A stretch of 61,779 nucleotides of DNA from a virus, in IMG/VR virus record IMGVR_UViG_3300025030_000017, positions 1-61,779 of that record; one strand, given 5' to 3'. This document shows positions 572 through 47,598 of the stretch, piece by piece. The notes under the pieces were generated by a model, which did not search any database, was not told the DNA's origin, and worked only from the letters and a program-made list of their open reading frames with translations. The position numbers and the translations under genes were made by a program. Numbering within the stretch: position 1 is the stretch's first letter; each line of letters begins with the position of its first letter.

Positions 572-1082
572 CGAGTGGGGAGAGCCGAAGCAGCCGGCGA
601 AGGACGGCCTTCTCTTCCTTCTGCAATCCCTTGAACAGGACGAGACTATCACCGACATTCGCCACGCCGCTTACATGCTGGCCACGGTACGGCACGAATG
701 CCAGCGCACCTGGCGCCCTATCGAAGAATACGGCAAAGGGTCCGGCAGGAAGTACGGCCTCCCGGCGAAGAATGGCAAGGTTTACTATGGCCGGGGATAT
801 GTCCAACTGACATGGGCGGAAAACTATCAGGCTATGGGGCAGGCGCTGGGGGTGGATCTGTACGGCAAGCCGGAACTCGCCTGCAATCCTGACATTGCCT
901 ACAAGATCATGAGCCGGGGGATGCGGAAGGGGTCATTCACTGGCGTTAAACTCTCGACCTACATCAATGGTGAGGAATGCGATTATCCCCATGCGCGGAA
1001 AATTATCAACGGGATGGACTGCGCCGAGATGATAGCCGGGTATGCGGTGGAGTTTGAACGGATGCTGCGGCAATCTATATGA
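528..1082 (+). CDS. Endolysin, glycoside hydrolase family 19 (chitinase-like) fold
   Basis: 184 residues. The segment YYGRGYVQLTWAENY is the conserved GH19 substrate-cleft signature, and ATVRHECQRTWRPIEEYG carries the likely catalytic Glu of the HE motif. These enzymes cut the glycan strand of peptidoglycan at the end of infection. No signal peptide, so export would need the holin. GTG 528 is chosen because TTGGAG lies about seven bases upstream. It sits between the holin-like gene and a papain-fold/exported protein set, a normal lysis arrangement. Confidence 0.85.
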   Translation: MEAIDKTKFLSLYRDEWGEPKQPAKDGLLFLLQSLEQDETITDIRHAAYMLATVRHECQRTWRPIEEYGKGSGRKYGLPAKNGKVYYGRGYVQLTWAENYQAMGQALGVDLYGKPELACNPDIAYKIMSRGMRKGSFTGVKLSTYINGEECDYPHARKIINGMDCAEMIAGYAVEFERMLRQSI

Positions 1083-1098
1083 GCCAAAGGAGAAAAAT

Positions 1099-1497
1099 AT
1101 GAGCAAGAAATTTATCAATCAGATGGTGGACCGTTTCCTGTGTTGGAAATTGCCGGCGGATTTCGCCCCTGACTGCGGCATCAGCTTCGATGGCAGAGAG
1201 GACGATGAATGGAACAAGGACAAGACATGGCCGGTCGGGACCAACCTTTTTACCGCAGAGCAGGCAAAGCAAATGTTTTCCGAAGTGGTAGCGGATGATG
1301 AAGAATTGACTAGCAGGGAAGAAACAGCATGGTTAATCGAACTGGAAGGGCCAAAATGGGCGGGATTTGTTGACGGTAAGCCGGAATGGACAACGGACCC
1401 GAATAGAGCGCTCCGCTTTGCCCGTAAAGAGGATGCCGACAATTTCAAAGCTTTCTGGTGTATGACGGCTGCCAGCACAGAGCATTCCTGGCTGTGA
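1099..1497 (+). CDS. Conserved phage protein, 132 aa, unknown function
   Basis: The N-terminus (VDRFLCWKLP ... FDGREDD ... WPVGTNLFTAEQAKQM) matches a short protein often seen in tailed phages next to lysis or accessory genes. Start at ATG 1099 is set by AAAGGAG at 1086-1092; a longer frame opens upstream but lacks a ribosome site. The C-terminal half (TDPNRALRFARKEDADNF) resembles a small alpha/beta domain. No function can be assigned. Confidence 0.7.
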   Translation: MSKKFINQMVDRFLCWKLPADFAPDCGISFDGREDDEWNKDKTWPVGTNLFTAEQAKQMFSEVVADDEELTSREETAWLIELEGPKWAGFVDGKPEWTTDPNRALRFARKEDADNFKAFWCMTAASTEHSWL

Positions 1498-1576
1498 ACC
1501 CCTACTGCCCGTATCACAGGCGTAACGGAGTGCATGGTATAGAGCCGTGCTGTAAGTATTGCCAATGGAGGGACTT

Positions 1577-2335
1577 ATGAAGATAGCTTTCCGCAAGAAG
1601 TGCCACACCATTTACAGTCGCATCATCTGCTTCTGGACCTTTGGCAAGTACTCTCATTCGGAACTTGTTTTTTCCGATGGCAAGAGTTTTTCCGCTGATG
1701 AGTCCGACGGTGGGACGCGCTGGAAAGACTGGCAGATGAGCGACGACGAATGGGACTTCATCGACATCCCTTGCAACAAGACTCAGGAGAAAGAAATCCG
1801 CAAGTTTTGCGAAGGCGAGGACGGTTTGAAATACGACATGATCGGCATCGGCTTTTCCTTTCTCCCCATTCCTATCGGCTGGCAGTCTGCTGAGAAATGG
1901 TTCTGCTCTGAAATCTGCGCGGCGGCACTGCAACAGATTGGCTATCTTGTCGGCTACACGCCTTCGAGGATCAGCCCGAACAAATTGTACTCCCTGCTGA
2001 AGAATGAACGGCGGTTTCGTATCAAGTCGCTGCCGTTGACGCTGGTGGTGCTGTTGATGGCACTTCTATTCAACTCGTCGGCTTTTGCCAATGGTTGCGA
2101 ATGTCTCAAGGCTAAAGAACTTCGTGAGCAAGATTTACGGGCAAAACTGAAAATGGCCAGCATGGTTTCAAAACTGATGGCCGATGAAATTGTGACCACC
2201 TCTCCAAAAGCGTATTACGAAAGAGAAAAGGTTTTGGAACAATACCGATATTGGGCCGATGAAGTCGAAAAGCTTTTTGAGGAGTCAATAGATGAAGCGT
2301 CTACCGGGTGCATTTGCAACGATGGCATGTTTTAG
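1577..2335 (+). CDS. Permuted papain-fold (YiiX/DUF830-like) hydrolase with a C-terminal membrane anchor
   Basis: Residues 1-140 have the order His-Ser-Glu (GKYSHSELVFSD) then a nucleophile-type Cys (WFCSEICAAAL), the permuted arrangement of NlpC/P60-superfamily amidases. After it come a hydrophobic stretch at about 155-175 (LPLTLVVLLMALLFNSSAFA) resembling a signal peptide or TM segment and a charged helical tail ending in cysteines. The tail overlaps a lipoprotein gene in another frame, reminiscent of an Rz/Rz1 pair, so this could be a peptidase fused to an inner-membrane spanin-like tail. Start ATG 1577 is preferred over ATG 1559 because GGAGG lies upstream. Confidence 0.6.
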   Translation: MKIAFRKKCHTIYSRIICFWTFGKYSHSELVFSDGKSFSADESDGGTRWKDWQMSDDEWDFIDIPCNKTQEKEIRKFCEGEDGLKYDMIGIGFSFLPIPIGWQSAEKWFCSEICAAALQQIGYLVGYTPSRISPNKLYSLLKNERRFRIKSLPLTLVVLLMALLFNSSAFANGCECLKAKELREQDLRAKLKMASMVSKLMADEIVTTSPKAYYEREKVLEQYRYWADEVEKLFEESIDEASTGCICNDGMF

Positions 2336-2507
2336 TTTCTGGCGAAAATCTATAATAGCGGTCGTTATTTTATCCGGCTGCGCCTCCGTAGCCTGCCCCA
2401 AGACAGTACAGGTTGAGGCAGGAACCGGCGTAAGACACGAGGTAGGGGAATCGCCAGTGAAAACAAACACGGCCATTGTACGGGCCACATGGGAGTTCAG
2501 GAAATGA
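2292..2507 (+). CDS. Small lipoprotein, possible outer-membrane spanin
   Basis: 71 residues with a basic N-terminus, hydrophobic core and lipobox LSGC, so the mature lipoprotein would begin at Cys 30. It starts inside the previous gene (44-base overlap) behind GGAG seven bases upstream, the layout typical of o-spanin genes. It is not proline-rich, so spanin identity is inferred from context only. Confidence 0.55.
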   Translation: MKRLPGAFATMACFSFWRKSIIAVVILSGCASVACPKTVQVEAGTGVRHEVGESPVKTNTAIVRATWEFRK

Positions 2508-2857
2508 AATACATAATCGTTGCACTACTTCTCTTGGTGGCTTCCGGCGCGTATGCCGGATGGGAAGGTTTTTCTTTTGCCAACGAAGGTGGTTATACAT
2601 GCGAGTACGAAAAGGTGACGCGGCTTGTGAATGAGGGCGATGCCGCTTGCGATCATGAGTGGGTTTATGAACCGGAAAGCATAAGACCTAGTGCAGTGTA
2701 TGCCGTCTATTGCGCCTGTGGTTGTCCCAACGAAGGGCGCAACAAGATATGTCGCAAATGTCTCCGTAAGGTCAATGAAAAGACTGAAGGGAGAATGGTG
2801 TCACCAAAGGAGTCGGAATACGAAAAACTGAACCGGCAGATTGGAGGCGAGAAATGA
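2504..2857 (+). CDS. Secreted cysteine-rich protein
   Basis: Signal peptide MKYIIVALLLLVASGAYA followed by a 99-residue mature chain. A cysteine cluster (YCACGCPNEG, CRKC) suggests a zinc or disulfide fold in the periplasm. ATG overlaps the preceding stop as ATGA. No known family. It is one of four consecutive genes for exported or membrane-linked products next to the lysis module. Confidence 0.6.
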   Translation: MKYIIVALLLLVASGAYAGWEGFSFANEGGYTCEYEKVTRLVNEGDAACDHEWVYEPESIRPSAVYAVYCACGCPNEGRNKICRKCLRKVNEKTEGRMVSPKESEYEKLNRQIGGEK

Positions 2858-3012
2858 GATGGATCTTGATAGCAACACTCCTTGCCGGATGCGCCTACAA
2901 CTCACAGACTGTTAATGCTTATGGCAGTCTCGTCTATTGCCACGGCACTGTTGATAAACCGGTCGATGTGAGCACCGATTTAAAAGGCAACAAAGTAACC
3001 CCTCTACCGTAA
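2854..3012 (+). CDS. Small lipoprotein (52 aa)
   Basis: Lipobox LAGC at residues 10-13 gives a 40-residue mature lipoprotein beginning at Cys 13. The start overlaps the preceding stop as ATGA. Could be a second spanin candidate or a superinfection-exclusion lipoprotein; the sequence does not decide. Confidence 0.55.
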   Translation: MRWILIATLLAGCAYNSQTVNAYGSLVYCHGTVDKPVDVSTDLKGNKVTPLP

Positions 3013-3022
3013 AGGACAGACC

Positions 3023-3970
3023 ATGAACGAATCATTCAGGTACGACAAGGGATTGGGAGATGCTGCGATTTACATGAGGCTCCTGAATAGTACAGGCGAG
3101 TTCTACGACTTCCTGGCTACGTCATTTGTCTCTGAGGAAACCGCCAACTGCCAACTCCTGATGACGGAGTTCCCCGACAGTTCAACGGAACAGTCCTGGT
3201 ACTATGTGACCTTTGATTCTCCTGCCGGGGGTCCGTTTGCTATCGAGATAGTCCTAGTCTCGACCAGTGAAGTCATAGGTTACGATACGGTCTTCTCTTC
3301 GACTGAAGCAAGCGAAGCCGGGGAAACGTCCATCGGTGATCTTCTGGACATCGTTATCGGAAGATTTGCGAAAATCAACAAGCCGCCGATGATCGATTTC
3401 CTGACTGCGGCTAACATGACGATGGACATCATCTACCGCAGACTCATGACGAAGAAATCGGAACTCATCCTTGGGTCTTTCTCTCAGGCTGTCTTAGCGA
3501 ATGCGTCAACCGTGACCCTCCCTACCGATTTCCAAGGGTTTTTCGAGCGTCCCTATATCTCAGGGTCAACCTGGCATCTCGACCCGTTACCGGGCGAATA
3601 TCGAGCTTCTTTAACGACTGCCGGCAGACCTCAGTTTTACGGATTGAGGGGAACGACGATGACTTTGTTCCCGACGACGAGTGCTGCAATAACCATCGTC
3701 GGTCAGTATTACAAAAAGCCGGTCAAGTTTACCGCGCTGACCAACGTCATTCCTTACAACGGGCTTATCGATAACGTCCTTCAGGAAGGCATCATTGCAG
3801 TTGGCATGACGGGGATGGGCGCGTTACTCGACGCTCAATTCCAGGCAATCATGAGCAAGATGATCGATGAGATCCTTGCCTTTAGATCTCCACGAACTGT
3901 CAGATTCCACTACACCTATGAAAACAGCCAACGTATGCGGGGCGCACACCCTGACTACTTCAACGTATGA
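3023..3970 (+). CDS. Virion structural protein with adaptor-like C-terminal half
   Basis: 315 residues. About 110-300 show the pattern of head-tail adaptor proteins (DLLDIVIGRF, IYRRLM, VTLPTDFQGFF, then a helix-rich end). The N-terminal 100 residues are beta-rich and may be an added decoration or Ig-like domain. RBS AAAGGA precedes ATG 3023. The next two genes are an adaptor-family protein and a nozzle-like protein, which supports a place in the portal-tail complex. Confidence 0.55.
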   Translation: MNESFRYDKGLGDAAIYMRLLNSTGEFYDFLATSFVSEETANCQLLMTEFPDSSTEQSWYYVTFDSPAGGPFAIEIVLVSTSEVIGYDTVFSSTEASEAGETSIGDLLDIVIGRFAKINKPPMIDFLTAANMTMDIIYRRLMTKKSELILGSFSQAVLANASTVTLPTDFQGFFERPYISGSTWHLDPLPGEYRASLTTAGRPQFYGLRGTTMTLFPTTSAAITIVGQYYKKPVKFTALTNVIPYNGLIDNVLQEGIIAVGMTGMGALLDAQFQAIMSKMIDEILAFRSPRTVRFHYTYENSQRMRGAHPDYFNV

Positions 3971-3978
3971 GGTAACTA

Positions 3979-4626
3979 ATGGCGACGATTACCGCAGAAT
4001 CAGTGATGAACAAGGCGCGAAAGATCCTCAACGATGCGGGGTCTGTGCGGTGGGATAATGCCGATTTGTTGGGTTGGTTAAATTCAGGTCAAAAGGAAAT
4101 CGTCCTCTATAAGCCGAACGCGAATACCGAGACTGCCGTCATGACTATGGTCGAGGGAAGCGTTCAGACTGTCACCGGGCTTCAGTTCATCAGGATCATC
4201 AGCAATGTCGCGTCGGACGGAACGACAGCAACCAGCGTCCCGAGTCCGGTTGAACAGTCGGTGTTGGATGGACTCTACCCGAACTGGATGGCAGCGACGG
4301 CTAGTGCGATCCCCAAGTATTACTGCTTTGACAGGAAACTTCTCAAGACGTTCTTTGTCTATCCGCCGCAACCTGCGTCTCCCGGCAAGGTGAGAATCCT
4401 TCAGTCGGCGGCTCCTGCGGTGATTCTCATCGGGAATATTTCTTCTGCAACGATTCTCGATGACATCTACGAGACGCCGTTGATCGATTACATCGTCTAC
4501 CGGGCCTTCTCCGAAGATACCGAAGTCATCGACGCTGCAAAGAGCGATGCGTTCTTCCAGAAGTTTGTCGCAGCAATGGGCGGTAAGGCTCAAGCCGAAA
4601 CCATTGGAGAGATGAATGCGAATTAG
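3979..4626 (+). CDS. Head-tail adaptor protein (DUF6682-like)
   Basis: The start MNKARKILNDAG..RWDNADLLGWLNSGQKEI matches podovirus adaptor proteins that sit between portal and tail nozzle. 215 residues, the usual family length, with C-terminal helices. It overlaps the next gene by 11 bases. Confidence 0.7.
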   Translation: MATITAESVMNKARKILNDAGSVRWDNADLLGWLNSGQKEIVLYKPNANTETAVMTMVEGSVQTVTGLQFIRIISNVASDGTTATSVPSPVEQSVLDGLYPNWMAATASAIPKYYCFDRKLLKTFFVYPPQPASPGKVRILQSAAPAVILIGNISSATILDDIYETPLIDYIVYRAFSEDTEVIDAAKSDAFFQKFVAAMGGKAQAETIGEMNAN

Positions 4627-6202
4627 TCTGAAGCCTTTTGGCGGGATCATTCCGAAAGCCGACCCTCACTATCTGCCTGACTCAGCGGCAGTGACGGCGC
4701 AGAACTGCAAATTCACGTCCGGTTCTCTGGAAGCGTGGAAGAATCCTTTGACAGTGAACACGCCTTCGAAAGTCGGGACGAAGACCAGCATCTATCTCTA
4801 CGAGAATCAATACTGGCTGCATTGGGTTGATCTGGATGTGAATGTCGCCAAAAGTCCTACGGCGACAGATGCGTATAAAAGGATCTACTGGACCGGCGAC
4901 GGCGCTCCAAAGATGTCTGTCTTGGATGCGATAGTCACCGGAGGAACGGCCTATCCGAACAACTCTTACCTCCTGGGTGTCCCTGCTCCGGCAATGGCTC
5001 CTACTGTCTCGGTGGTTGGGAGTATTACCGACCCCGACCCGACCCTTGTGGAATCTCGGACCTACGTATATCGGTACGTCTCGGCCTATGGTGAGGCAGG
5101 CCCTCCGTCTTCTGCTTCCGTAACCGTTGACGTTGCTCCCGGTCAAAGCGTTGATATTACGAACATGAGCGTTGCGCCAGTCGGGAACTACAACATAGCA
5201 ACGAAGGAAATCTTCCGTTCGAACACAGGAAGTTCCGATACGGCCTATCAGTTGGCTGGTTCAGTCGCAGTGGCGACAACGACCTTCTCTGACACCGTGG
5301 ACTCAGCCGATTTAGGTGAGGTTTTGGACAGTCTGTTGTGGGATGTCCCGCCGACTGGCTTGAAAGGGTTAATTGCTCTCCCAAATGGTTGTCTTGCCGG
5401 CTATTCCGGAAACGAACTCTGTTATTCAGTTGCCTATCAACCTCATGCGTGGCCGTTGAATCAGCGATGGCCTGTCTCTGACGAGATCATGGGTATCGGG
5501 GCATATGGCATGACGGTTCTCGTCACGACAGACGGTGCTCCCCGCATTGCCACCGGTCAAGACCCGACTGATGTGACGATTGAGAGACTTGAAAACGGCT
5601 ATGCCTGCACTCTGAAACTCGGTGTCGTGGATATGGGCTACGCTGTCGCTTATCCTTCGACCGGAGGCTTGATGTCTGCCGGCGTCAACGGGGTGGAACT
5701 GATTACCAGGGATATTCTTTCTAAAGACGACTGGCAAGCGTTGGGTCTGACGAAAGCCTACTTCTACGGAGGTCTGTATATCGGTTTCGGGACGACGACT
5801 TTCATCTTCAATCCCGCTACCAAAGACCTGGCTACTCTCTCCGGAATAACCGCGACGGCTGGTTATCATGACCCGGCGACTGGCGAACTCTATCTCATGG
5901 TGGGGAGCAACATCGTCAAGTGGGATGCCGGGGTTGGGTATCTGACGTATACCTGGAAGTCGAAGCCGTTTGTCTCTGAGAAACCGATCAACATGAGTTG
6001 CGCGAGAGTCTATGCCGACAGTTACCCGGTGACGCTGAAAGTCTACGTAGACGGGACTTTGAAGCATACACAGACCGTCGCCAATAACCTGGTCTTCCGC
6101 CTGCCTTCAGGCTTTCGTGGCACTGAAATCTCGGCGCAAGTGGAAGGCACTGTCAACGTCTATGCGGTGGACATTGCCGAAAGCGTGAGTGAGATGAAAT
6201 GA
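4616..6202 (+). CDS. Tail nozzle/hub-like structural protein
   Basis: 528 residues, largely beta-strand. The N-terminal pattern FGGIIPKADPHYLPDSAAV..NCKF..G.LEAWKNP is typical of large podovirus tail proteins that follow the adaptor gene. Repeated short beta motifs suggest a propeller or stacked sheet fold. The gene ends overlapping the receptor-binding protein by four bases. Confidence 0.6.
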   Translation: MRISLKPFGGIIPKADPHYLPDSAAVTAQNCKFTSGSLEAWKNPLTVNTPSKVGTKTSIYLYENQYWLHWVDLDVNVAKSPTATDAYKRIYWTGDGAPKMSVLDAIVTGGTAYPNNSYLLGVPAPAMAPTVSVVGSITDPDPTLVESRTYVYRYVSAYGEAGPPSSASVTVDVAPGQSVDITNMSVAPVGNYNIATKEIFRSNTGSSDTAYQLAGSVAVATTTFSDTVDSADLGEVLDSLLWDVPPTGLKGLIALPNGCLAGYSGNELCYSVAYQPHAWPLNQRWPVSDEIMGIGAYGMTVLVTTDGAPRIATGQDPTDVTIERLENGYACTLKLGVVDMGYAVAYPSTGGLMSAGVNGVELITRDILSKDDWQALGLTKAYFYGGLYIGFGTTTFIFNPATKDLATLSGITATAGYHDPATGELYLMVGSNIVKWDAGVGYLTYTWKSKPFVSEKPINMSCARVYADSYPVTLKVYVDGTLKHTQTVANNLVFRLPSGFRGTEISAQVEGTVNVYAVDIAESVSEMK

Positions 6203-8487
6203 GTCTACCCGACCTCCCTACCATACCGTCGAGTCAGGAGCCGAATACCAAACGGGCAATCGACATGCTGCGCGTCCTCTTTAATTCTCTCAAGAAGAAG
6301 GGCGGTCTGGTAGCGGTCAACGACTTGGTGAATGCGGGTCTGGTTAATTCATCCCTTCAGGCGACCGGCTCTGAATATGACGGTGCGATTCCCCCTGCTA
6401 TTGTCGGTCTGACGGCGACAGGAGCCTTCCGAACGATCATCCTTGAGTGGGATGCGGTCAACTTTAGAAACTACTCCTACGTCGAGATTTGGCGCTCCAC
6501 GACTGACGACTTGGGTACAGCAGTGAAGATCGGCACGACGACAGCAACACTTTACTCCGACCTTCCGCCTAATGCGTCAATGGCCGTGACTTACTATTAT
6601 TGGGCGCGGGTCATCAGCCGATCCAACATGATCGGCCCGTTCAACGCGACTGCCGGGACTGGCGCGACGACTGCCAACGACCCTGCCTATGTCATCGAAA
6701 TTCTCGAAAACCAGTTGACTGAAAACGAATTGTACGGAGATTTGCAAAGCCGTATCAACCTCATCGACACGACCGGGACGGGTCTTATCGACCGAATGAT
6801 TTCCGTCGAAGCGGGGGTGGAGACTGCCCTTGCCAATGGGATTTCTACCGCGCCCTTTGACGAGAATGATACCTACATCGTCGGTGCGCTCGTTTCCTAT
6901 GACAATTCAATCTATAAGTGCATCCTTGAAATCAACTCGACCCCAGCTCCGATTCCGACGAACGAGACGTATTGGGTTCTGATTGGAAACTATGCGACTC
7001 TGGCAGACATGGTTTCGGCTAATGCGGCGAGTCTTGTGTCTCTGGACAGCGAAGTAGATGGTATTGGGAGCACCGTTGCCGCGCATTCAGGGTACATCAC
7101 GGCTCTGGAAACGACCGTCAATGATCCAGCTACCGGAGTCCTAGCGACTTCAGGAGCCTTGACTACGCTGACTTCAAGAGTGACGAATACCGAAAACACG
7201 AACATCTCTCAGGGTTCAGCTATTACGGCGCTTGAGTCCACAGTAAACAATGGTACGACTGGCGTGACGGCGACTGCCTCTGCTCTCTCGACTTTAACGA
7301 CGAGAGTGACGAATGTCGAAGGCGTGAACACTTCTCAGGCGTCAAGTATCTCGACACTGCAAACGACTGTCGGGGGGCATACGACTTCGATTCAGACCAA
7401 TGCTTCATCAATCGACGGTATCCAGGGAAAGTACACCGTCAAGATAGACAATAACGGGTACGTCACAGGGTACGGGCTTATCTCTTCCGCAAACAACGGA
7501 ACGCCTACTTCAGAGTTCATGGTTGTCGCGGATAAGTTCTCAATCGCTCCTGTAGCAACGAACGGAGACGCGGTTGACGGTTCCCCCTTCTTCCATCTGA
7601 CGACGACAACAACGGTTGACGGGGTAAGCCTGCCTGCCGGAACGTACATGAAGAAGGCGTTTATAACCGACCTGACAGCGACCAATATCAGGGCGGCGAG
7701 TGTCACTGCCGACAGACTTAACGTTACGCTGCTTTCTGCGATCTCAGCCAACCTTGGCACAGTGACGGCGGGGGATATTATCTCTGCGACCTACCGAACG
7801 TCATCAACCAATGTCAAGCGAATTGACATCAACTATACAACGCAAGGCGAGATGACTTTTTACGGAGACAGGGGCGACGGTACAGTTACGGTCCTGGCAA
7901 CTATAGGCATAGGGCAAGTGGAGTCAGATTATTACGTGGGTATTTTTGGTAACACCAATGCCGGCAATTCCCGCGTTGGTCTGTTTGCTGGAAGCAGTAG
8001 TAGTTATGGGCTTGTCGTAAAATCAGAAACAGGCAGCGCGTCATATTTCTTTACGAATGGCAGTGCTGCGACTGGCGTATATGTCACAGTCACTGGTGCA
8101 AATGCTTATGGAGCCAAATTCTATTCTAACGGTACGGGTGGAGTAGGGCTACAAGCTACGGGAGTCAGTACCGGAGTTGTCGGCAGCAGTTCAGGAAGTT
8201 ATGGCGTTTCTGGATTGGGAGTGACGGGGGTGCATGGCAGCGGGAGTAATTACGGTGGTGAATTTAACGGTGATGTTTATGGGGCAGTTTTTAATACAGG
8301 GTCGTATGGTTCTATCAAGATAGGTTCGAGGACCAGCGACCCGCCAGGTGCCGAAGGCGGGGCGATGTACTTCAATAGTTCCAGCAATAGATTGAAGGCG
8401 TATTCAGTGTATATATCCGGCTATAACGAGGGCAACCCGATTCTCGCCGGGCCTTCCTGGGTATTTGCCGATTTCACAACAACATAG
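6199..8487 (+). CDS. Receptor-binding tail fibre with gpJ-like modules
   Basis: 762 residues. About 70-155 look like a fibronectin III repeat (TIILEWDAVNFRNYSYVEIWRS), 220-260 like a chitin-binding-type module (DTYIVGALVSYDNSIYKC...YWVLIG), and 400-510 match the DUF1983 region found at the C-terminus of lambda gpJ-type tip proteins (KYTVKIDNNGYVTGYG, then RAASVTADRLN). A coiled or repetitive section lies between, and the last 200 residues are glycine-rich. The last part (about 7790-8487) is more AT-rich than the rest, suggesting a recently acquired receptor tip. Confidence 0.65.
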   Translation: MSLPDLPTIPSSQEPNTKRAIDMLRVLFNSLKKKGGLVAVNDLVNAGLVNSSLQATGSEYDGAIPPAIVGLTATGAFRTIILEWDAVNFRNYSYVEIWRSTTDDLGTAVKIGTTTATLYSDLPPNASMAVTYYYWARVISRSNMIGPFNATAGTGATTANDPAYVIEILENQLTENELYGDLQSRINLIDTTGTGLIDRMISVEAGVETALANGISTAPFDENDTYIVGALVSYDNSIYKCILEINSTPAPIPTNETYWVLIGNYATLADMVSANAASLVSLDSEVDGIGSTVAAHSGYITALETTVNDPATGVLATSGALTTLTSRVTNTENTNISQGSAITALESTVNNGTTGVTATASALSTLTTRVTNVEGVNTSQASSISTLQTTVGGHTTSIQTNASSIDGIQGKYTVKIDNNGYVTGYGLISSANNGTPTSEFMVVADKFSIAPVATNGDAVDGSPFFHLTTTTTVDGVSLPAGTYMKKAFITDLTATNIRAASVTADRLNVTLLSAISANLGTVTAGDIISATYRTSSTNVKRIDINYTTQGEMTFYGDRGDGTVTVLATIGIGQVESDYYVGIFGNTNAGNSRVGLFAGSSSSYGLVVKSETGSASYFFTNGSAATGVYVTVTGANAYGAKFYSNGTGGVGLQATGVSTGVVGSSSGSYGVSGLGVTGVHGSGSNYGGEFNGDVYGAVFNTGSYGSIKIGSRTSDPPGAEGGAMYFNSSSNRLKAYSVYISGYNEGNPILAGPSWVFADFTTT

Positions 8488-10858: not shown

Positions 10859-12367
10859 ATGTTCGAGCGAGTCAATCCTGTAACCGAAAGCATCAACGCA
10901 TATAAAGCAGTCAATGACATCTTCCGTGGTGATAGGGAAGAACAGAGGGCGATTGCCGAAACCGAGTACAACCGTAACCGTCAGGCAAGACTTGACGAGA
11001 TGAGCGCGGAGAGTCACAAGGCGGTGTTGGAATCGAACGCTCTGGCACAGGAAACGTCACGGCTTCAGTTGAAAAAAGAGAAGGACGCGGCAGAAGCGAA
11101 CAAATGGCAAGCAATCAAGCTCATGGCCCTCAGAAACCCGCAAGGCTGGTATAACGACCTTGACCCTTCTGACTCGGAAAGAATCATCGCAGAGACGAAA
11201 TCTGACCCCAAGTTTGCGTTTCTCCACACGCCGGAAGCGAGACGGACGCAGCTTGCGAAGATTCAGCAGATTTACGCCGCGATGCCGAATCCTGACAAGC
11301 CTCAATTTGACATGCCGAGTCTTCTGGAAGGGATGAATCACGTCTTCGCGTCTCAGCTTGCGAAAGGGACTGACGACAAGGGTGAGCCGGCGAAAAAGGA
11401 GATTGTCAGTTTCACGATGGACCCGCGAGACAAGTCGTTTATTCCGGAACTCAAGATAACAAGGAAAGACGGCAGTTCATATACCGCGCCGATGACCGTT
11501 GACCCTTTGACGGGTGAGCGCAGTTCCTCTCCTGACAGCATCGTGAAGAAGATTACCATTCCGCAGATTGCCGATTACCTTGGCGTAGCGGAAGGGCTTA
11601 TCAATCTGGCTGATGCGAAACAGGTGAGCCTTGGTGATGATGAACCGTTGAAACAAGCTATTACCGATGCCAAGACAGCCAAATCGTTCAAAGCCGTTAA
11701 GGATGCTGCACAAGCATTGCCGGAAGGCCCGTTGCGTGATGCGCTGATAGCGATTGCTCCCGGCGTGGCTTCAGGAGAAATCCCCGGTGCGATTGCCGAT
11801 ACGATGCTCAAGGCAGCAACGAAAACAGAGGAAAAACTTGATTTTAAAGAGGCTGGACATGGGCAAATTATCTGGCTAACAGGCCCGAAGAAGGGCCAAA
11901 AGGAACGTGTCCCGGTCAAGCCTGACAAAGAAGGTTCCGGTGCCGGTTCTAAGATGGGTGAGGCTGAAAAAACCCTCTATAACCAGATGATAAAAGCGTG
12001 GCAGGACATGAAGAAGATCACCAGTTTGCCGGCTGGCTCCAAGACAACCGTCGAAGAGTACGACCCGATCATGCAGACGACGAGGACCAAAGAAGTCACG
12101 GTGCAGAAAGAGACGGTTGATGCTGCAAGGGCTATCTATTACGGTCTTGAGAGACGCGGCATGGAGACGTATGGCTGGAAGCCAGATGCGACGAGTCCGA
12201 ATGCAAAGCAGGGTGCTGTAAAGAAACCCGACGAGTCAAAGGGAACAAAGATTGAAGTGAAGCAGTCGTTTAACGGCGGTGACGTGATTCTTGCGACTGA
12301 CGGGACGTACTACAAGAAGACGAAGAACGGCTATGTCAAGGCTAACGTCAAACAGCGAGGTGCATAA
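10859..12367 (+). CDS. Internal virion protein, 502 aa
   Basis: Start chosen at ATG 10859 directly after the previous stop; a longer frame upstream overlaps the glycine-zipper gene and lacks support. The protein is long, charged and helical in its first 120 residues and has no obvious enzyme motif. It ends overlapping the giant ejection protein by one base. Size and order resemble the middle ejection protein of podoviruses. Confidence 0.55.
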   Translation: MFERVNPVTESINAYKAVNDIFRGDREEQRAIAETEYNRNRQARLDEMSAESHKAVLESNALAQETSRLQLKKEKDAAEANKWQAIKLMALRNPQGWYNDLDPSDSERIIAETKSDPKFAFLHTPEARRTQLAKIQQIYAAMPNPDKPQFDMPSLLEGMNHVFASQLAKGTDDKGEPAKKEIVSFTMDPRDKSFIPELKITRKDGSSYTAPMTVDPLTGERSSSPDSIVKKITIPQIADYLGVAEGLINLADAKQVSLGDDEPLKQAITDAKTAKSFKAVKDAAQALPEGPLRDALIAIAPGVASGEIPGAIADTMLKAATKTEEKLDFKEAGHGQIIWLTGPKKGQKERVPVKPDKEGSGAGSKMGEAEKTLYNQMIKAWQDMKKITSLPAGSKTTVEEYDPIMQTTRTKEVTVQKETVDAARAIYYGLERRGMETYGWKPDATSPNAKQGAVKKPDESKGTKIEVKQSFNGGDVILATDGTYYKKTKNGYVKANVKQRGA

Positions 12368-15300
12368 TGGCTGAACCGGTCATCTATTTGGATGAACTGC
12401 AAGACGATACTCCTGTTATTGACGTGGGGAGTTTGAAGCCGGATACGTCTACAGCCAAGGTTGAAAAGCCGAAGCGTTCTCTTGTCGGGGAATTTGGTGC
12501 CGGCCTTGCCCAAGGCGCGCTGCAACTGCCGCAGATGGTGGGGGGAGCTACCAAGCTGGCTGGCGATGCGATAGGTAGTGAAACGGTCAGCGCCTTGGGG
12601 AAAGACGCCATCAACTATTGGGGCAACAAACTGAAGCCCTATGAAGCGGAAGTGCCGTCATTTACCGATGTTGAAGATGCGGGAGACGCGGCGAAATACG
12701 TTGCTCATGGCGTCGGTGCGCTCGTCCCGACTGTCGCTGCGTCGGTCGTTTCAGGTGGTATCGGTGCCGGCCTTGCCAAAGAAGGCGTCAAACGCGCCAT
12801 AGCCAAGGAGATTGTCAAGCGCGAACTCAAGCACGAAGCCGTTGATCTCATGGCGAAAGGTGCCGTCAAGGAAACGGTGAAGAAAGCCGTTACCAGGGGG
12901 GCGATTGCGGGGGCCGGCGCTGCGAGTTACGGGATGGAAGCAGGAAGTATCTACACCGATCAAACTGAACAGGGCATCGAGAAACCTTTTAAGGCGGCGT
13001 TGACGGCGGTTCCTGCGGCGGCACTCGATGTCATCCCTGAGTTAAGAATCCTGTCGAAGATTCCTGCGTTCAAGGTCTTACAGGAGATCCCCTTCTTCAA
13101 GACTGCCGAAGGGCGTAATGCCCTTGTCAGAGGGGGGAAGGAAGCTCTCAAGCAAGGCGGGGCGGAAGGCGTTACCGAATTTGCTCAGACGCTTATCGAA
13201 CGGTACGGTGCCGACAAGGAAGCGTTCTCGAAAGAAGGTCTGTTGGAAGCGGCGAACGCTGGCATCCTTGGGGGCATTGGTGGCGGCATGATGGGTGGCG
13301 TTGCTGGTTCAGTGCAGAAACCGGCGACTGATACGAATCTGCTCAAAGAGGACTCCAAAGAAACCAGCGACATCGCTCAAGAGATCCTGCGGGTCAGAAA
13401 TCAGCCTCTTCCAGAACAAGCGCCTCCTGTCGCACAGCCTGAAGCCTACGATGGTCCGGTAATGGATGCCGAAGCACCGACTCCCGAAGACCTGGAGCTT
13501 CAGTCGATGCAACGCGAGAACGAGAACTACCGTCAGCAGCAGTTGATGGACAAACAGGACATCCCGACTGTGGAAGAGAAGCCCGTCCCGCAAGTCCCTT
13601 CGTCATTCAAGACGGTAGACGGCAAAGTGACGGTGAAGACCAAAGCTGTCGGTGAAGGCGTTTTTCAGGTCGAGACAACGAACATTGACGAGTACGGTCA
13701 CAAGAAGACGTTTGTTCAAGAGATGAACGCGGAAGATGCGGTCAAGCATATCGACAATGTAACGCCTCCCGTAACAAGGGATCAATATCTTCAGGTCAAA
13801 GGAGCGAATAATGAAGCAATGTCCGAAATGCAAACATCAAATGCTGAAGGCGACCAAAGTCTGCCCACGTTGCAAAACGAAGGTAGCGTAAATGATAGTC
13901 CAGAAACCGGAGGGGTGGTACGTCCAGTCGGAGAAGGGGCGCAACCTGGGGGGGCCGTATCAGACACAGCAACAAGCGCACTCCCGACAGGCGAAGGTGG
14001 AGGAATGTTGCCTGAGGGATCGACCGTCGAAACCGCGTCCTCCAAAGAAAGTAAAGCAAGTGATGAAACGTCCAAAACGGCTCCCAAAGTAGTCATCAAG
14101 TCTTTGTCTGACCTTCCCACTGGGCAACATGAGATAAAGGGTGCAGGGACGTTCCTCGTTGACGACAAGGGAAAAGTGAAGATCCTTCGCGGGACGAAAC
14201 TTGAGTCAGTCGATCCGATGCGTCGAAAGCTGGCAATCGACAAGTACAACGGGATGGTTCTTGCGGAGAAGCAGAAGGCAAATCTTGAAGCCCTGAAAGT
14301 CGGTAAGACGAAACAGAAAGCGATGGCAGAGGAAGCGCGGGGCATTGCTGAAGACGACGCTCCTTTCCTTCGTGCCGCTCTTCAGAACGTCAAGGATGCC
14401 GACTTTGGCAAAATTAGCGTCGATGGCAACCAAGCTGAAGCCACCTGGTCAACCTTTGGCGCGTTGATTCCGTATATCAGAGGGACGGGTTTCAACAAGG
14501 CCGATGCAGTGAAGATCATGGCGGAAGCGGTCAATACGGGTAAACTGCCTCCTGAGAAGAATAAAGCAGAGAGAAGTTTGGTAGAGTCTGCCCTGAAGCA
14601 TGAAAAGGAACGCATCGAGGAAGCGGAGAATCGCGTTGAGACGGAGGACGAGAGGCTTGTTCAGCAAGAGTTAGCAGAAGAAAGAGACACGGTAGAGGGC
14701 GGGGATACGAGTTTTGAGTTTGGGGAAGAACCTGAGTCTTCAGTTCTGATGGAAGGCGACCAACCCAAACTCTTCCCCACTCCCCCGACCTTTGGCAAGA
14801 AGCCGCAAGGGACAGGAACCGTCTCTGAAACGCCGATGCTCACGGAAATGAAGGAGCGGGAAGCGGAGTCGAAGCAGACTTCAATGACGCTTGACATGCT
14901 TGGGATGCAGCAGATTTACGAGTCCTTGACCGATGGAGCGATAAAGGCACACGCTGCAACCGCTTTGGATAAAGTGCATCGGATGCTTGAGAACCCCGGT
15001 GGCCTTGGTTCAATGGAACGGGGCAAGGAATACCTGCAACTGAAATATCTCTTAAGTGGCACTTTTGACAGGTTACAGGAAGTTCAAAGAAATCTGTACC
15101 AAGACTTTCGCAAGGCATCTAAGGAAACGAAGGAAAAGATTTTTGAGTTCATGGAAGACGCGCAAGCCGACCCATTGACGATTCCCGTCGAATACCGGCA
15201 GAAAGCAATCAACGCGAAAACAATGATTATGGAGGTTGGGGCTAAACTGGTTGCTCGTAAAATGCTGCCGGCTGAAATCTACGAAGAGAACAAGGGCCGG

Positions 15301-17814
15301 TATCTCCCGCGTGTTTACTTAAAGCATATCCTTGGTGAAGACGGACGGGCGATGGTGATGAACGGTTCTGGCATCAAGGCGTATCTCGGTTATCTGAAAA
15401 AGCGCCTCGAAATGACTCCTGAACAGAGACTCGCCTTGGGTCAGATTAAAGACCCTGGCTATCTCATTTCCCGCGCCTTTGGTGTGCCGATGCGTGATAT
15501 GGAAATCTTTGACTTCTTCGATGAGATGATTACGAATGACGAGGGCGAGGCTGCCTGGGTTTTGCCTGAATCAGCGACTCCGTGGACTGTAGACGGAGGC
15601 AAGGCGATACAGCAGGTTGGCAACGTGACCTACACCAAAAACGATGACGGCACGTATAACCTGACTATCAAGAAAGTATCTCACGTCCAAACGAAGAACA
15701 AGGCTATTCCCGCCTCCGACCTGAATCTTCTGTTGGGAAGCGACAAACTTGCTGACTACATCAAAGCCGGGAAGGGTAAGCAAGTAATGCGGAAGGACGG
15801 CGACGTTTACAAACCTACTCCCTGGAAACGGGTCGGGCATATCCAGTACCGCCTTAATCCTGACGGGACGTATAACGTCAATCTTACCAATAAGGTTGCC
15901 AGCGAAACAAAAGTTGATAACGTCAAAAATCTTGAAGACCATATCAGTGAGTACAAAGCGGAACGAATCACGGAGGGCAAAGGGAAAGTAGTCAATGGCC
16001 GCATGGTGACTCCTTATTGGTTGTCTGCCGAAGCCGACCGTATTCTTACCAAACAAATTCCTAACATGGCTGAACCGGACAGGTCGAAGGCTATTGAGAT
16101 TGCCAAAAGGATGCAGGACACGGCAGCAAAGATGATGGAGGGGCTTAACAAGACCCCTGAAGAAGTAGCCAAACATTTCCAAGCAATGCCGGATTCCCCG
16201 AAATATGGAGCGTTGAGAGGGCTGTGGGTACGCAGGGAAATCTATAACGATCTTGTCGGTAACATGAAGATCACCGTTGGCGAAAGATCGTGGCCTGAAT
16301 TTCTCTTGGATTACATGATGAATAAGGGTACATCGCTATGGAAATGGGTACATGTCGCGGCGAACCCTCCGACGCAGGTGGTCAACTTTATCTCCAACGG
16401 GTTTCTTTTGCATATCTCTGGCGTGCCTATGGCGATGGTGCCGTACCGTATAACTCAAGCCATAAGCGAGATGCTGGTAGGCAGTCCGAATTGGCAAAAG
16501 CTCAAAACAAAGATAGGCCCGGTGGCTGCGGCACGAGTGGAAAAGTTTGCCAAGGGCGGGAAACATTGGAAGATTGCAAAAGAAGGTGGGGTCAAGTCGG
16601 CAGGTATGGCAAACGTAGAACTGTACCGCGTTGAACAGGACATGCTCGACCTTATCGCCCTTGATAAGCCGTGGTGGCATCCGAAAGTCATGCTGAAGAT
16701 TGGCGGCAAAATCATGAATGCGACGGGTGACGTTTATCAGATGTGGGAGTCTATCGGTAAAACGGCGAAGATCATTCATGAAAAAGAAACTCCCCGGTGG
16801 CGCGAAAAGGATGGCAGCGTCAAGCCGTATGCCTTTGCTAGGGACAAAGGTAGTTCGACCTATCGGAAAGCTACCGATAACGAAGCAATCGTGGCGGCTC
16901 ACGATGCACTCTTTGATTATTCGCTGGCTCCAGGATGGGTGAAGTTTATCAGAAAGTTTCCGTTAGGGACTCCGTTTGTAACCTTTACTTACAAGGTTCT
17001 TCCCGCGACTATCAAGGCAGCGGCTCTTACACCGTGGGTCTTTACTCCGTATCTCGCTATTCATTACGGTCTTCCCTACGCGATCATGGCGATGACGGGT
17101 ATAGATGACAAAGACGATTACGACAAGCTGATGCAGACCATCTTTAAATTTGTCCGAGAGAAATCTCACGTCTACCTCTGGCCGGTTAAGGATGCTAAGG
17201 GCAGATGGCAAGCATTCGACCTTGGCAGATATATTCCCTGGGCGCAATGGATGGCCTTTCAGGATCATGTCAGAAAAAGAGAAATCGTAACCGCCTTCGC
17301 CGATGATCTTGGAGTGGGTAGTGGCCCTGCGATGGATCTTGTAGACTTGGCAAAAAACCAAGACTCTTTTACCAAACAACCGATATACGATGTGAACGCA
17401 GACTTCAACGAACAAGCTGGACAAGTGATGATGTACCTAACTCAGATGGCCACTCCCCCCTGGCTGACGAATAGAGGGTGGGCCGGCAAACTTTATTCAG
17501 CGATGAATAACGAGATTGGCAAACCTGGTGAACAAAAGCCTACTGTGGCACAAGCTAATCTGAGGCTTATCGGGGCGAATTTCTATCAGTTCGACCCTGA
17601 AATGTCGAGAGCACAAAACATTAACCAGATGGACTATGCAATTGCAGAGGTCAGGCAACAGAAAAATAGCGCTTTAAAGGACAGGGATTTAACTGACGCA
17701 GATAGAAAAGAAGTGACCTTAAAATACGATACGATAATCCAGAAAATGAACCTCAAGAAGATGAAGTACGCCGCCAACTCGATGCCGAAAGATCAGTCAT
17801 TACTACAACGCTAA
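12367..17814 (+). CDS. Giant ejection protein (large polyvalent protein), 1815 aa
   Basis: N-terminal third has Gly/Ala-rich hydrophobic helices (GAGLAQGALQLP, GIGGGMMGGVAGS), suited to membrane entry. A low-complexity acidic/serine linker lies at about 480-575. The C-terminal part (GERSWPEFLLDYMMNKGTSL onward) has the helical hydrophobic character of large-polyvalent-protein C-terminal domains. This is the largest gene and ends the ejection operon. The linker DNA also carries two small reading frames in the +1 frame with their own ribosome site and better codon bias, so it seems to have formed by overprinting. No protease or lysozyme signature was identified with confidence. Confidence 0.7.
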   Translation: MAEPVIYLDELQDDTPVIDVGSLKPDTSTAKVEKPKRSLVGEFGAGLAQGALQLPQMVGGATKLAGDAIGSETVSALGKDAINYWGNKLKPYEAEVPSFTDVEDAGDAAKYVAHGVGALVPTVAASVVSGGIGAGLAKEGVKRAIAKEIVKRELKHEAVDLMAKGAVKETVKKAVTRGAIAGAGAASYGMEAGSIYTDQTEQGIEKPFKAALTAVPAAALDVIPELRILSKIPAFKVLQEIPFFKTAEGRNALVRGGKEALKQGGAEGVTEFAQTLIERYGADKEAFSKEGLLEAANAGILGGIGGGMMGGVAGSVQKPATDTNLLKEDSKETSDIAQEILRVRNQPLPEQAPPVAQPEAYDGPVMDAEAPTPEDLELQSMQRENENYRQQQLMDKQDIPTVEEKPVPQVPSSFKTVDGKVTVKTKAVGEGVFQVETTNIDEYGHKKTFVQEMNAEDAVKHIDNVTPPVTRDQYLQVKGANNEAMSEMQTSNAEGDQSLPTLQNEGSVNDSPETGGVVRPVGEGAQPGGAVSDTATSALPTGEGGGMLPEGSTVETASSKESKASDETSKTAPKVVIKSLSDLPTGQHEIKGAGTFLVDDKGKVKILRGTKLESVDPMRRKLAIDKYNGMVLAEKQKANLEALKVGKTKQKAMAEEARGIAEDDAPFLRAALQNVKDADFGKISVDGNQAEATWSTFGALIPYIRGTGFNKADAVKIMAEAVNTGKLPPEKNKAERSLVESALKHEKERIEEAENRVETEDERLVQQELAEERDTVEGGDTSFEFGEEPESSVLMEGDQPKLFPTPPTFGKKPQGTGTVSETPMLTEMKEREAESKQTSMTLDMLGMQQIYESLTDGAIKAHAATALDKVHRMLENPGGLGSMERGKEYLQLKYLLSGTFDRLQEVQRNLYQDFRKASKETKEKIFEFMEDAQADPLTIPVEYRQKAINAKTMIMEVGAKLVARKMLPAEIYEENKGRYLPRVYLKHILGEDGRAMVMNGSGIKAYLGYLKKRLEMTPEQRLALGQIKDPGYLISRAFGVPMRDMEIFDFFDEMITNDEGEAAWVLPESATPWTVDGGKAIQQVGNVTYTKNDDGTYNLTIKKVSHVQTKNKAIPASDLNLLLGSDKLADYIKAGKGKQVMRKDGDVYKPTPWKRVGHIQYRLNPDGTYNVNLTNKVASETKVDNVKNLEDHISEYKAERITEGKGKVVNGRMVTPYWLSAEADRILTKQIPNMAEPDRSKAIEIAKRMQDTAAKMMEGLNKTPEEVAKHFQAMPDSPKYGALRGLWVRREIYNDLVGNMKITVGERSWPEFLLDYMMNKGTSLWKWVHVAANPPTQVVNFISNGFLLHISGVPMAMVPYRITQAISEMLVGSPNWQKLKTKIGPVAAARVEKFAKGGKHWKIAKEGGVKSAGMANVELYRVEQDMLDLIALDKPWWHPKVMLKIGGKIMNATGDVYQMWESIGKTAKIIHEKETPRWREKDGSVKPYAFARDKGSSTYRKATDNEAIVAAHDALFDYSLAPGWVKFIRKFPLGTPFVTFTYKVLPATIKAAALTPWVFTPYLAIHYGLPYAIMAMTGIDDKDDYDKLMQTIFKFVREKSHVYLWPVKDAKGRWQAFDLGRYIPWAQWMAFQDHVRKREIVTAFADDLGVGSGPAMDLVDLAKNQDSFTKQPIYDVNADFNEQAGQVMMYLTQMATPPWLTNRGWAGKLYSAMNNEIGKPGEQKPTVAQANLRLIGANFYQFDPEMSRAQNINQMDYAIAEVRQQKNSALKDRDLTDADRKEVTLKYDTIIQKMNLKKMKYAANSMPKDQSLLQR
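13811..13891 (+). CDS. Overprinted zinc-knuckle peptide (26 aa) inside the ejection gene
   Basis: In the +1 frame relative to the giant gene. AAAGGAG at 13798-13804 lies six bases before ATG 13811, an ideal ribosome site. The peptide has two Cys-x2-Cys pairs (CPKC and CPRC) ten residues apart, a zinc-ribbon pattern unlikely by chance. Its stop is immediately followed by the start of another +1 frame gene. Confidence 0.5.
   Translation: MKQCPKCKHQMLKATKVCPRCKTKVA
13892..14092 (+). CDS. Overprinted small protein (66 aa) with a GWYVQSEKGRNLGGPY motif
   Basis: Directly follows the zinc-knuckle frame (TAA then ATG). The first 35 residues resemble a short phage/bacterial protein type containing W-x-V-x-S-x-x-G-x-x-L-G-G-P-Y; the tail is lysine/proline-rich. 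Third codon positions in this frame are strongly G/C, whereas the giant gene's frame across the same bases is low-complexity with mixed third positions. I infer this was the older coding frame, now read through in another frame as the linker. Confidence 0.5.
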   Translation: MIVQKPEGWYVQSEKGRNLGGPYQTQQQAHSRQAKVEECCLRDRPSKPRPPKKVKQVMKRPKRLPK

Positions 17815-45852: not shown

Positions 45853-47598
45853 ATGACTAACGCCCTTCAACAATTCGAAGACCTCAGTGCCGATCAGATA
45901 GCGGAGTTGATCGCTGACTTGAAGATGTCCGTGGATTTTGAGGAATACGCCAGGACGAAGCTCAAGGTGCAGCCAAGGGAGGGAGGCGGCTTTGAGCGTT
46001 TCATACTTAACGGTCCACAACGACTTTATGAAAAGATTGAAAGAAAAATCATAGCCAAAGGCCGTTTGGTCAGAGTGGTTATTTTGAAAGGCAGGCGGCA
46101 GGGCATAACAACGCTTTTTTCTGGGAAAAATTACCAGCATGTTACGAGCAATCCAAGCACATATTGCATGCAAATTACACACGAACCTGCTGCGAGTGAG
46201 TTCATTTTCAAGATGGTCAAACGCTTCCACAACAATATCCCGGCAAAAGAAAGGCCAGATGTCCTCGCCAACAATGCCCGTCTTTTAGAGTTCAACAACG
46301 CACAAGGAACGGGCCTTGATTCTGCTTTTCGTGTTGCGACTGGCGGTAAAGATGATGTTGGTTCAGGGCAAGCAGTGCATCGACTGCATATATCTGATGC
46401 CTTTAAACTGCCCCGCGAAAATGCAGAAGGTCTGATTAAGGCTGTACTGCCATGCGTACCTCCCGAACCAGGTACAGAAGTAGTGATTGAAGGCACAGCA
46501 GACGGCGTTGGGGGGGAAGTATACCGAAGATTTTGGGGGTGCCGCTTTAGGTATTTTGTGAAAAGGCTGGACGATAACGGTGAACCAATGGTCGAAGAGG
46601 AAATCAACGAATCTGCCAATAAGTCAAATAACTACACGGCAGTCTTCTTTCCCTGGTTTATTTTTGAACTCAATAGGATGCTTGTACCTTCTGATTTTGT
46701 TTTAACAGAAGAAGAGATCGAAATAAAAACTCAGTTCAATTTAGATGACGAACAGATGTATTGGCGCAGATACACGATTGATAATGATGCCGATGGCATT
46801 ATTGAGAAATTTAACGAAATGCACCCTTCTACACCAGAAGAGGCGTTTCTTTCAACTGGAGTTCCAGTTTTTGACAACAAAAAGATTGCGGCTTTTAGAG
46901 ATGCAGCAAAACCGCCCAAAGTACGTTATTCGTGTATGCCGTCAACGGGCGTATGGTACGCAAAAGAAGACGGAGAACTCCGTGTGTGGCAAGAACCTAA
47001 AGTCGGAGCATCGTATATCATCAGTGCTGACGTGGCCGAAGGTCTTGAAAGCGGAGATTTCGATTCGGCTGATGTTATAGACCACCGGACAGGCGAACAA
47101 GTGGCCCATCTCCATGGCAAATGGCCTCCCAAGATATATGGTCAAATACTGGTGTCTCTTGGTAGAAGATATAACGTGGCGTATTTAGCCCCTGAGCGCA
47201 ACAACCATGGCCTTACGACTGTCACCGAAATAGTTGACTCCGGATACCCTAGAATCCACATGGAGATGGTCCCTGAACCGCCAGGCAAACCACGTAAACG
47301 GTGGGGATGGGTAACGAGTTCCAAGACAAGAACCGAGATCCTTGACACTCTCAAACTTGAGTGTATCGAAGGGACTCACGGCATAAATTGCGCCGAAACA
47401 TTCAGCGAAATGCTTGGCTTCAAAAAGTGTGGATCGAAAGAAGAAGCTGAACAAGGTTGGCACGATGATAGAGTTATTTCCATAGCCATTGGCAAGTATT
47501 TACGCCTAAAGGTCCCAATCCCTCAACGTCCGAAACCATCTCATATTAAAGAAGGTAGAAGTTCAGGTGGTAATAGGGGGGGGTGGGGGGGTGTATGA
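45853..47598 (+). CDS. terL: Terminase large subunit
   Basis: 581 residues. ATPase part: LKGRRQGITT is a Walker A variant without the usual Gly-Lys. Nuclease part: SADVAEGLESGDFDSADVID and GWHDDRVISIAIGKYL carry the acidic residues. It powers headful or site-specific DNA packaging. The C-terminus is glycine-rich. Directly upstream of RHH-HNH cassette 2. Confidence 0.8.
   Translation: MTNALQQFEDLSADQIAELIADLKMSVDFEEYARTKLKVQPREGGGFERFILNGPQRLYEKIERKIIAKGRLVRVVILKGRRQGITTLFSGKNYQHVTSNPSTYCMQITHEPAASEFIFKMVKRFHNNIPAKERPDVLANNARLLEFNNAQGTGLDSAFRVATGGKDDVGSGQAVHRLHISDAFKLPRENAEGLIKAVLPCVPPEPGTEVVIEGTADGVGGEVYRRFWGCRFRYFVKRLDDNGEPMVEEEINESANKSNNYTAVFFPWFIFELNRMLVPSDFVLTEEEIEIKTQFNLDDEQMYWRRYTIDNDADGIIEKFNEMHPSTPEEAFLSTGVPVFDNKKIAAFRDAAKPPKVRYSCMPSTGVWYAKEDGELRVWQEPKVGASYIISADVAEGLESGDFDSADVIDHRTGEQVAHLHGKWPPKIYGQILVSLGRRYNVAYLAPERNNHGLTTVTEIVDSGYPRIHMEMVPEPPGKPRKRWGWVTSSKTRTEILDTLKLECIEGTHGINCAETFSEMLGFKKCGSKEEAEQGWHDDRVISIAIGKYLRLKVPIPQRPKPSHIKEGRSSGGNRGGWGGV

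Follow-up and report, generated by a model that had tools for sequence, protein, structure and literature searches.

The giant late gene described here poses an unusual question: does it contain two further genes in another reading frame and, if so, which of the frames came first? The window, i.e. the whole stretch of DNA analysed, comprises 61,779 bases of a virus (IMG/VR record IMGVR_UViG_3300025030_000017). Its relevant features are the following.

12367–17814, + strand: giant open reading frame, 1815 aa, hosting the nested genes at about aa 482–575
13798–13804, + strand: Shine-Dalgarno sequence AAAGGAG of gene 1, identical in the related contigs L006 and L007
13811–13891, + strand: nested gene 1, 26-aa C4 zinc ribbon with two CxxC knuckles, in the +1 frame of the giant
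13892–14092, + strand: nested gene 2, 66-aa basic protein (pI 10.5), in the +1 frame of the giant
13892–14002, + strand: conserved βββα 'SEKGKNLGGPY' domain of gene 2 (aa 1–37), from relatives and AlphaFold2
14003–14089, + strand: lineage-specific basic tail of gene 2 (aa 38–66), kept as protein between the window and L007
13811–14092, + strand: overlap as read in the giant frame, a Gly/Ser/Thr/Pro-rich linker without sign of residue conservation
16123–17733, + strand: C-terminal region of the giant, about 520 aa, common to the non-nested giants L248 and L259 (MW202615.1)

Layout and selection at the nested locus

Gene 1 starts with the ATG at 13811, encodes MKQCPKCKHQMLKATKVCPRCKTKVA and ends with a TAA at 13889–13891. 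The ATG of gene 2 (13892) directly abuts this stop codon, and gene 2 ends with a TAG at 14090–14092. The ribosome site, the 26-aa CxxC...CxxC frame and the abutting 66-aa frame, both frames +1 within the giant, are present as an earlier sequence-only reading had described them. The third same-strand frame contains nine stops over the overlap. The same reading had proposed that the small frames carry the G/C-rich third positions of real genes, and this holds because third-position GC is 57.7% in gene 1 and 65.2% in gene 2, compared with 42.4% in the giant frame over the overlap. Elsewhere in the giant it is 57.2%.

Selection could be compared in a trio consisting of the window and L006 and L007, two IMG/VR contigs that encode close relatives of the window giant. 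These are three genomes only, all from assembled metagenomes. Both small frames are retained in L006 and L007; stops in the +1 frame of relatives that keep the linker, a result that would have refuted the two small genes, are hence absent. In the giant's flanks, 48 of 64 substitutions in L006 and 39 of 49 in L007 fall on giant third positions; the corresponding counts within the overlap are just 3 of 21 and 1 of 12 (Fisher p = 1e-6 and 8e-6, respectively). This phase switch is confined to the overlap, where substitutions fall on small-frame third positions instead. Between the window and L007, all eight base differences in gene 2, including a CGA>AGA change, are synonymous in the small frame, while 6 of 66 residues are altered in the giant frame. 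When the same substitutions were placed at random, none of 5000 trials produced so few small-frame changes; the giant-frame changes over the overlap matched random expectation. Judged from these substitutions, the small frame is therefore constrained and the giant frame over the overlap is a loose linker. The comparison between the two frames, which the sequence-only reading had suggested, thus places selection on the +1 frames, and its description of the giant frame as linker agrees with the Gly/Ser/Thr/Pro-rich composition and unconserved residues.

In gene 1, all four cysteines are kept in L006 and L007, changes around them are mostly synonymous (TGC/TGT, CCA/CCG, AAA/AAG), and the substitution test against L006 gave P = 0.006. 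Zinc-ribbon models in Pfam recognise the 26-mer at scores below the curated cut-off (DZR, E = 2e-4), and the two CxxC knuckles conserved in the trio speak for membership of the C4 zinc ribbons. On this evidence gene 1 looks real, with its expression unproven. When the surroundings of 162 small genes were searched, to 600 bp upstream and 800 bp downstream, a gene 1-like partner appeared as a separate nested gene in the trio only. Since gene 1 is restricted to the trio among the loci read, its age is open and the evidence does not establish an ancient operon of two genes. The small genes of L007 are set apart by an in-frame insertion of 114 bp; there, gene 2 is preceded by its own AAGGAG, seven bases upstream of the ATG. 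Gene 2 of L006 carries A at the P22 position.

The sequence-only reading had called the giant an ejection protein, a label without family support: no family matches were found for the window giant, and no polyvalent-protein domains were recognised in it. Its neighbourhood consists of late structural genes, and L248, which shares the C-terminal region, gives a sub-threshold ART-PolyVal match. The giant is probably an ejected or polyvalent-type virion protein, as inferred only from relatives with polyvalent-protein domains. A profile scan with all three trio giants did not find further close relatives. Giant identity within the trio is about 84–86% over the first ~788 aa; between the window and L007 it is about 46% thereafter, which suggests that the C-terminal half has been swapped, with the junction near aa 790. 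The L007 giant (858–6872) has an extra in-frame block of about 170–190 aa near the junction of the N- and C-terminal halves, and a 605-aa ORF of L007 (7283–9100) separates stretches that lie close together in the window. Further upstream in the window, a 258-aa ORF (1559–2335) matches phrog_1128 (enoyl-CoA hydratase-like, E = 6e-35); its position and fold class would be compatible with a ClpP-like head protease. The giant's end and the large terminase-like gene of the window (45853–47598) are about 28 kb apart, the latter downstream, and in this the window differs from phages whose small gene adjoins the terminase.

The gene 2 family in free, fused and nested form

Searched alone, the 66-aa product has hundreds of phage relatives, so that a lack of homologues elsewhere can no longer be held against it. 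At least 368 relatives were found in IMG/VR and 111 in GTDB species genomes. Residues 1–37 match, with 46% identity (E = 0.002), a free-standing, unannotated 43-aa frame with the same start in Aeromonas phage 1233 (OR359403.1, 54724–54852; L001). That record is sparsely annotated, with 28 features in 67 kb. The family consensus reads MIVKxxxGWxVxSEKGKNLGGPYxTxxxAxxRLxQVEYFKH, with a core, in window numbering, of G16, L19, G20, G21, Y23, A29 and R32, which gene 2 of the window fits. The start residues of gene 2 and its free-standing homologues coincide. A literal search of the literature for the motif gave no occurrence.

The usual form of the family is a free gene of about 43 aa, often near terminase or portal: directly 3' of large terminase genes in L010, L014 and L029, and 5' of portal genes in L028 and L078. 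In-frame fusions occur in other phages, with the domain at the N-terminus of a ~470-aa capsid-cluster protein, at the C-terminus of a Vibrio phage protein, or within pseudoteven phage genes annotated as 57B, 'RNA ligase' or anti-CBASS. In Citrobacter phage KKP_3664 (L261, 2006–2629) and RB43-like phages the domain forms the in-frame C-terminus, and it is relatives of these genes that carry the 57B, RNA ligase and anti-CBASS annotations.

AlphaFold2, run with 58 sequences, predicted a strand-strand-strand-helix arrangement with a pLDDT of 86–94 for the block of residues 1–40. Foldseek against the PDB returned a best E of 0.5, with the order of elements as in the DUF1508/YegP-like fold. Fold comparison gave weak matches to 6q2z (Z 3.9, 48 aligned, rmsd 4.2) and 3bid (Z 3.7, 52 aligned, rmsd 5.5), both of which we take to be DUF1508 structures. 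Pfam matched DUF2188 weakly in 4 of 13 relatives (E = 2e-5), and not at all in gene 2 of the window up to E = 1 (PF09954). Because the PDB matches are this weak, no function was read from the folds. From neighbours and charge alone, we offer only a weak guess that the small βββα protein is a basic, perhaps nucleic-acid-binding, accessory of assembly or packaging.

To describe nesting, we counted a copy as nested when it lies out of frame inside an ORF of more than 250 aa that extends on both sides. Among 129 distinct free-length small genes, 19 are nested, and L024 and L224, whose start codons lie slightly upstream of the match, are additional cases. Host ORFs mostly exceed 1000 aa, the longest reaching 3919 aa; those below 1000 aa (L036/L127, L099, L168) were included in the count and are less certain. 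The nested gene occurs in about a dozen (~13) different giant backgrounds. The domains recognised differ between giants: L020 combines ART-PolyVal and a 2'-5' RNA ligase domain, L063 has AAA_34 and a methylase, L035 carries inorganic pyrophosphatase and GGDEF, L253 has LPD38 and L258 ddrB-ParB. The 2'-5' RNA ligase-type domain of L020 (2296–8111) also weakly matches the anti-CBASS Acb1 model. Some BLAST similarities between giants reflect nothing more than the small gene's bases as translated in the giant frame (GxGxEPGxxx...GGVLQA).

A Shine-Dalgarno match of at least 5 nt precedes the nested gene in 13 of 18 lineages; among the remaining +1 ATGs of these giants the proportion is 7.3% (p about 1e-11). 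Four nested lineages without such a match belong to one subgroup (L150, L164, L165, L166), which possibly represents phages of hosts that do not rely on Shine-Dalgarno sequences. Together with L224, the only one to have a Shine-Dalgarno sequence, these share a variant motif GKNLS(Q/K)P. The DNA of the overlap is common to L150, L164, L165 and L166, and the flanking DNA does not align. Between L150 and L166, whose flanks are likewise not alignable, 3 of 45 residues differ in the small protein and 18 of 44 in the giant frame, with 3, 1 and 17 substitutions at the three codon positions. A phase switch was also observed in independent lineages, between L101 and L134 (p = 0.03), with 3, 5 and 8 substitutions at small-frame codon positions 1 to 3 over the overlap and 17, 45, 19 and 24, 88, 27 in the flanks. 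L099 and L101 share an N-terminal module to just beyond the nested gene and then diverge.

The relative frame is identical in all nested copies. This constancy is largely forced, because an ATG followed by A places a TGA in one of the other same-strand frames and leaves only one frame for read-through by a giant; we therefore dropped it as a meaningful signal, the off-1 frame being open in none of 110 free genes. The off-2 frame is open in 21 of 110 free genes against 3.2 expected from pooled codon usage, an excess that is not evidence either, since this expectation ignores differences in G+C.

Relatives of the nested giants also occur without the nested gene. In all 21 records searched whole, the small gene is present in exactly one copy, nested or free. 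The L249 giant is homologous at both ends to the nested giants L250 and L251 (E = 3e-49, and 3e-259 for the C-terminal end), and the small gene of L249 stands free, 1.2 kb upstream of the giant. In L248, whose giant shares its C-terminal ~500 aa with the window-type giant (E = 4e-20 to L006), the small gene is free about 1.2 kb downstream. MW202615.1 encodes a related giant and lacks the small gene. Related giants without the linker, whose existence the sequence-only reading had proposed to check, do therefore exist, and the placement of the small gene outside the giants of L248 and L249 fits the absorption of an older 66-aa gene. On the tree, the nested/free state needs 12 changes, at least three of them forced by well-supported branches, although the tree is poorly resolved overall (3 starred branches of 126).

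Order of events and alternative readings

We consider it highly likely that this is genuine same-strand overprinting, in which an old small gene was overrun by the giant's frame and kept its own product; there are no expression data. Ancestrally, the small gene would have been separate, often in a head, packaging or ejection cluster. A giant gene for a virion or polyvalent protein would then, repeatedly and in some phages, have lengthened its frame across the small gene and read the latter's bases as linker in the sole other open same-strand frame, while the small protein would still be translated from a start inside the giant. Gene 1 of the window would use AAAGGAG; the start of gene 2 at the stop of gene 1 suggests translational coupling, by which translation of gene 1 may lead into gene 2. 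The frames, start signals, small-frame selection, family membership, recurrence and nested-or-free alternation are observed. We infer, without transcript, ribosome-profiling or mass-spectrometry evidence, that the giant's mRNA serves for the translation of both small proteins; that the giant frame is the newcomer is likewise an inference, and the giant's translation as one piece over the overlap is an assumption that rests on its uninterrupted frame. The sequence-only reading had the giant absorbing an older small operon as a linker. For the 66-aa gene, with its free homologues and copies outside related giants, absorption of an older gene is well supported by the comparative evidence; the operon is not, gene 1 being found in the trio only.

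Could the +1 frames be open by chance, with the giant alone coding and the motif an accident of the linker? Their small size and the uninterrupted giant ORF would allow it, but homologues with coincident start codons, substitutions synonymous in the small frame, the phase switch, the Shine-Dalgarno enrichment and recurrence in different giants leave this reading next to no credibility. It is harder to dismiss, though still improbable, that translation over the overlap is confined to the small genes, the giant being in truth an upstream protein and a re-initiating downstream one joined by a fortuitously open frame. Giant-frame residues in the overlap are not conserved, L256 (606 aa) ends ~130 aa past its nested gene, and the open offset-2 frame in 21 of 110 free small genes makes openness cheap. 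Against this stand two large flanks in one continuous frame in ~13 giant backgrounds and all trio genomes, and the in-frame length of the L007 insertion. Overprinting is usually described as a new frame arising in an existing gene (PMC8227390), which would make the giant older and the small family one born inside giants that later escaped. We regard this as very improbable: across many phages and prophages, most members of the family are either free genes or in-frame fusions to other proteins, and the constrained frame is the small one and the loose frame the giant's.

A further reading is compatible with overprinting of an old small gene: the small gene may act as an anchor, mobile or recombining, for the exchange of cargo domains between giants, a conserved island whose occurrence in different giants would be due to DNA recombination at that site. 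The shared overlap between unalignable flanks in the L150 subgroup, the L099/L101 module that ends just past the nested gene and the 12 state changes would fit this. However, conservation of the overlap DNA as codons is expected from protein selection alone, and the tree that yields the state changes is poorly resolved; the anchor remains rather doubtful. We would similarly put forward only as a speculation, somewhat easier to entertain, that a portable small gene repeatedly serves as 'transparent' cargo in giant injected-protein genes, co-expressed with them and marking a domain-swap junction. If this were true, the small product would be expressed with the giant, and the site would be a junction for swaps of the giants' variable domains.

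Under the favoured reading, the usual overprinting story is reversed, an old small gene being overwritten by a growing giant frame, and free genes, genes beside a giant and genes inside one would form a natural series for studying gene absorption. The nested copies of this one family would escape ordinary annotation, and their recurrence in about a dozen giant genes suggests a systematic blind spot. Literature searches on nested genes in giant phage genes returned nothing on this case.

Relation to known systems

The Aeromonas phage 1233 gene differs from gene 2 in being free and in having neither the basic tail nor a zinc-ribbon partner. Like DUF2188 and DUF1508 (YegP-like) proteins, the family is small and βββα, with weak profile and fold matches; unlike them it has a distinct SEKGKNLGGPY signature, and the similarity is too weak for a claim of descent.

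Polyvalent-protein domains (Iyer et al. 2017, PMC5512222) are found in several giants that host a nested gene, including ART-PolyVal, LPD38, ddrB-ParB and AAA_34 with a methylase. The window giant, by contrast, has no match to these hallmark domains. In the parts of that paper available to us, the text on overlap, nesting or reading frame does not describe a second-frame gene.

Embedded genes in tailed phages, such as lambda Rz/Rz1, have been described as rare, and annotators are advised to use extreme caution in recording fully nested phage genes (PMC8785237). The arrangement reported here resembles Rz/Rz1 in that a small complete gene with its own start signal lies in another frame inside a larger phage gene. 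It differs in that the host is a giant virion-type gene and the small gene a member of an old free-standing family, and in that nesting recurs in ~13 different giant backgrounds.
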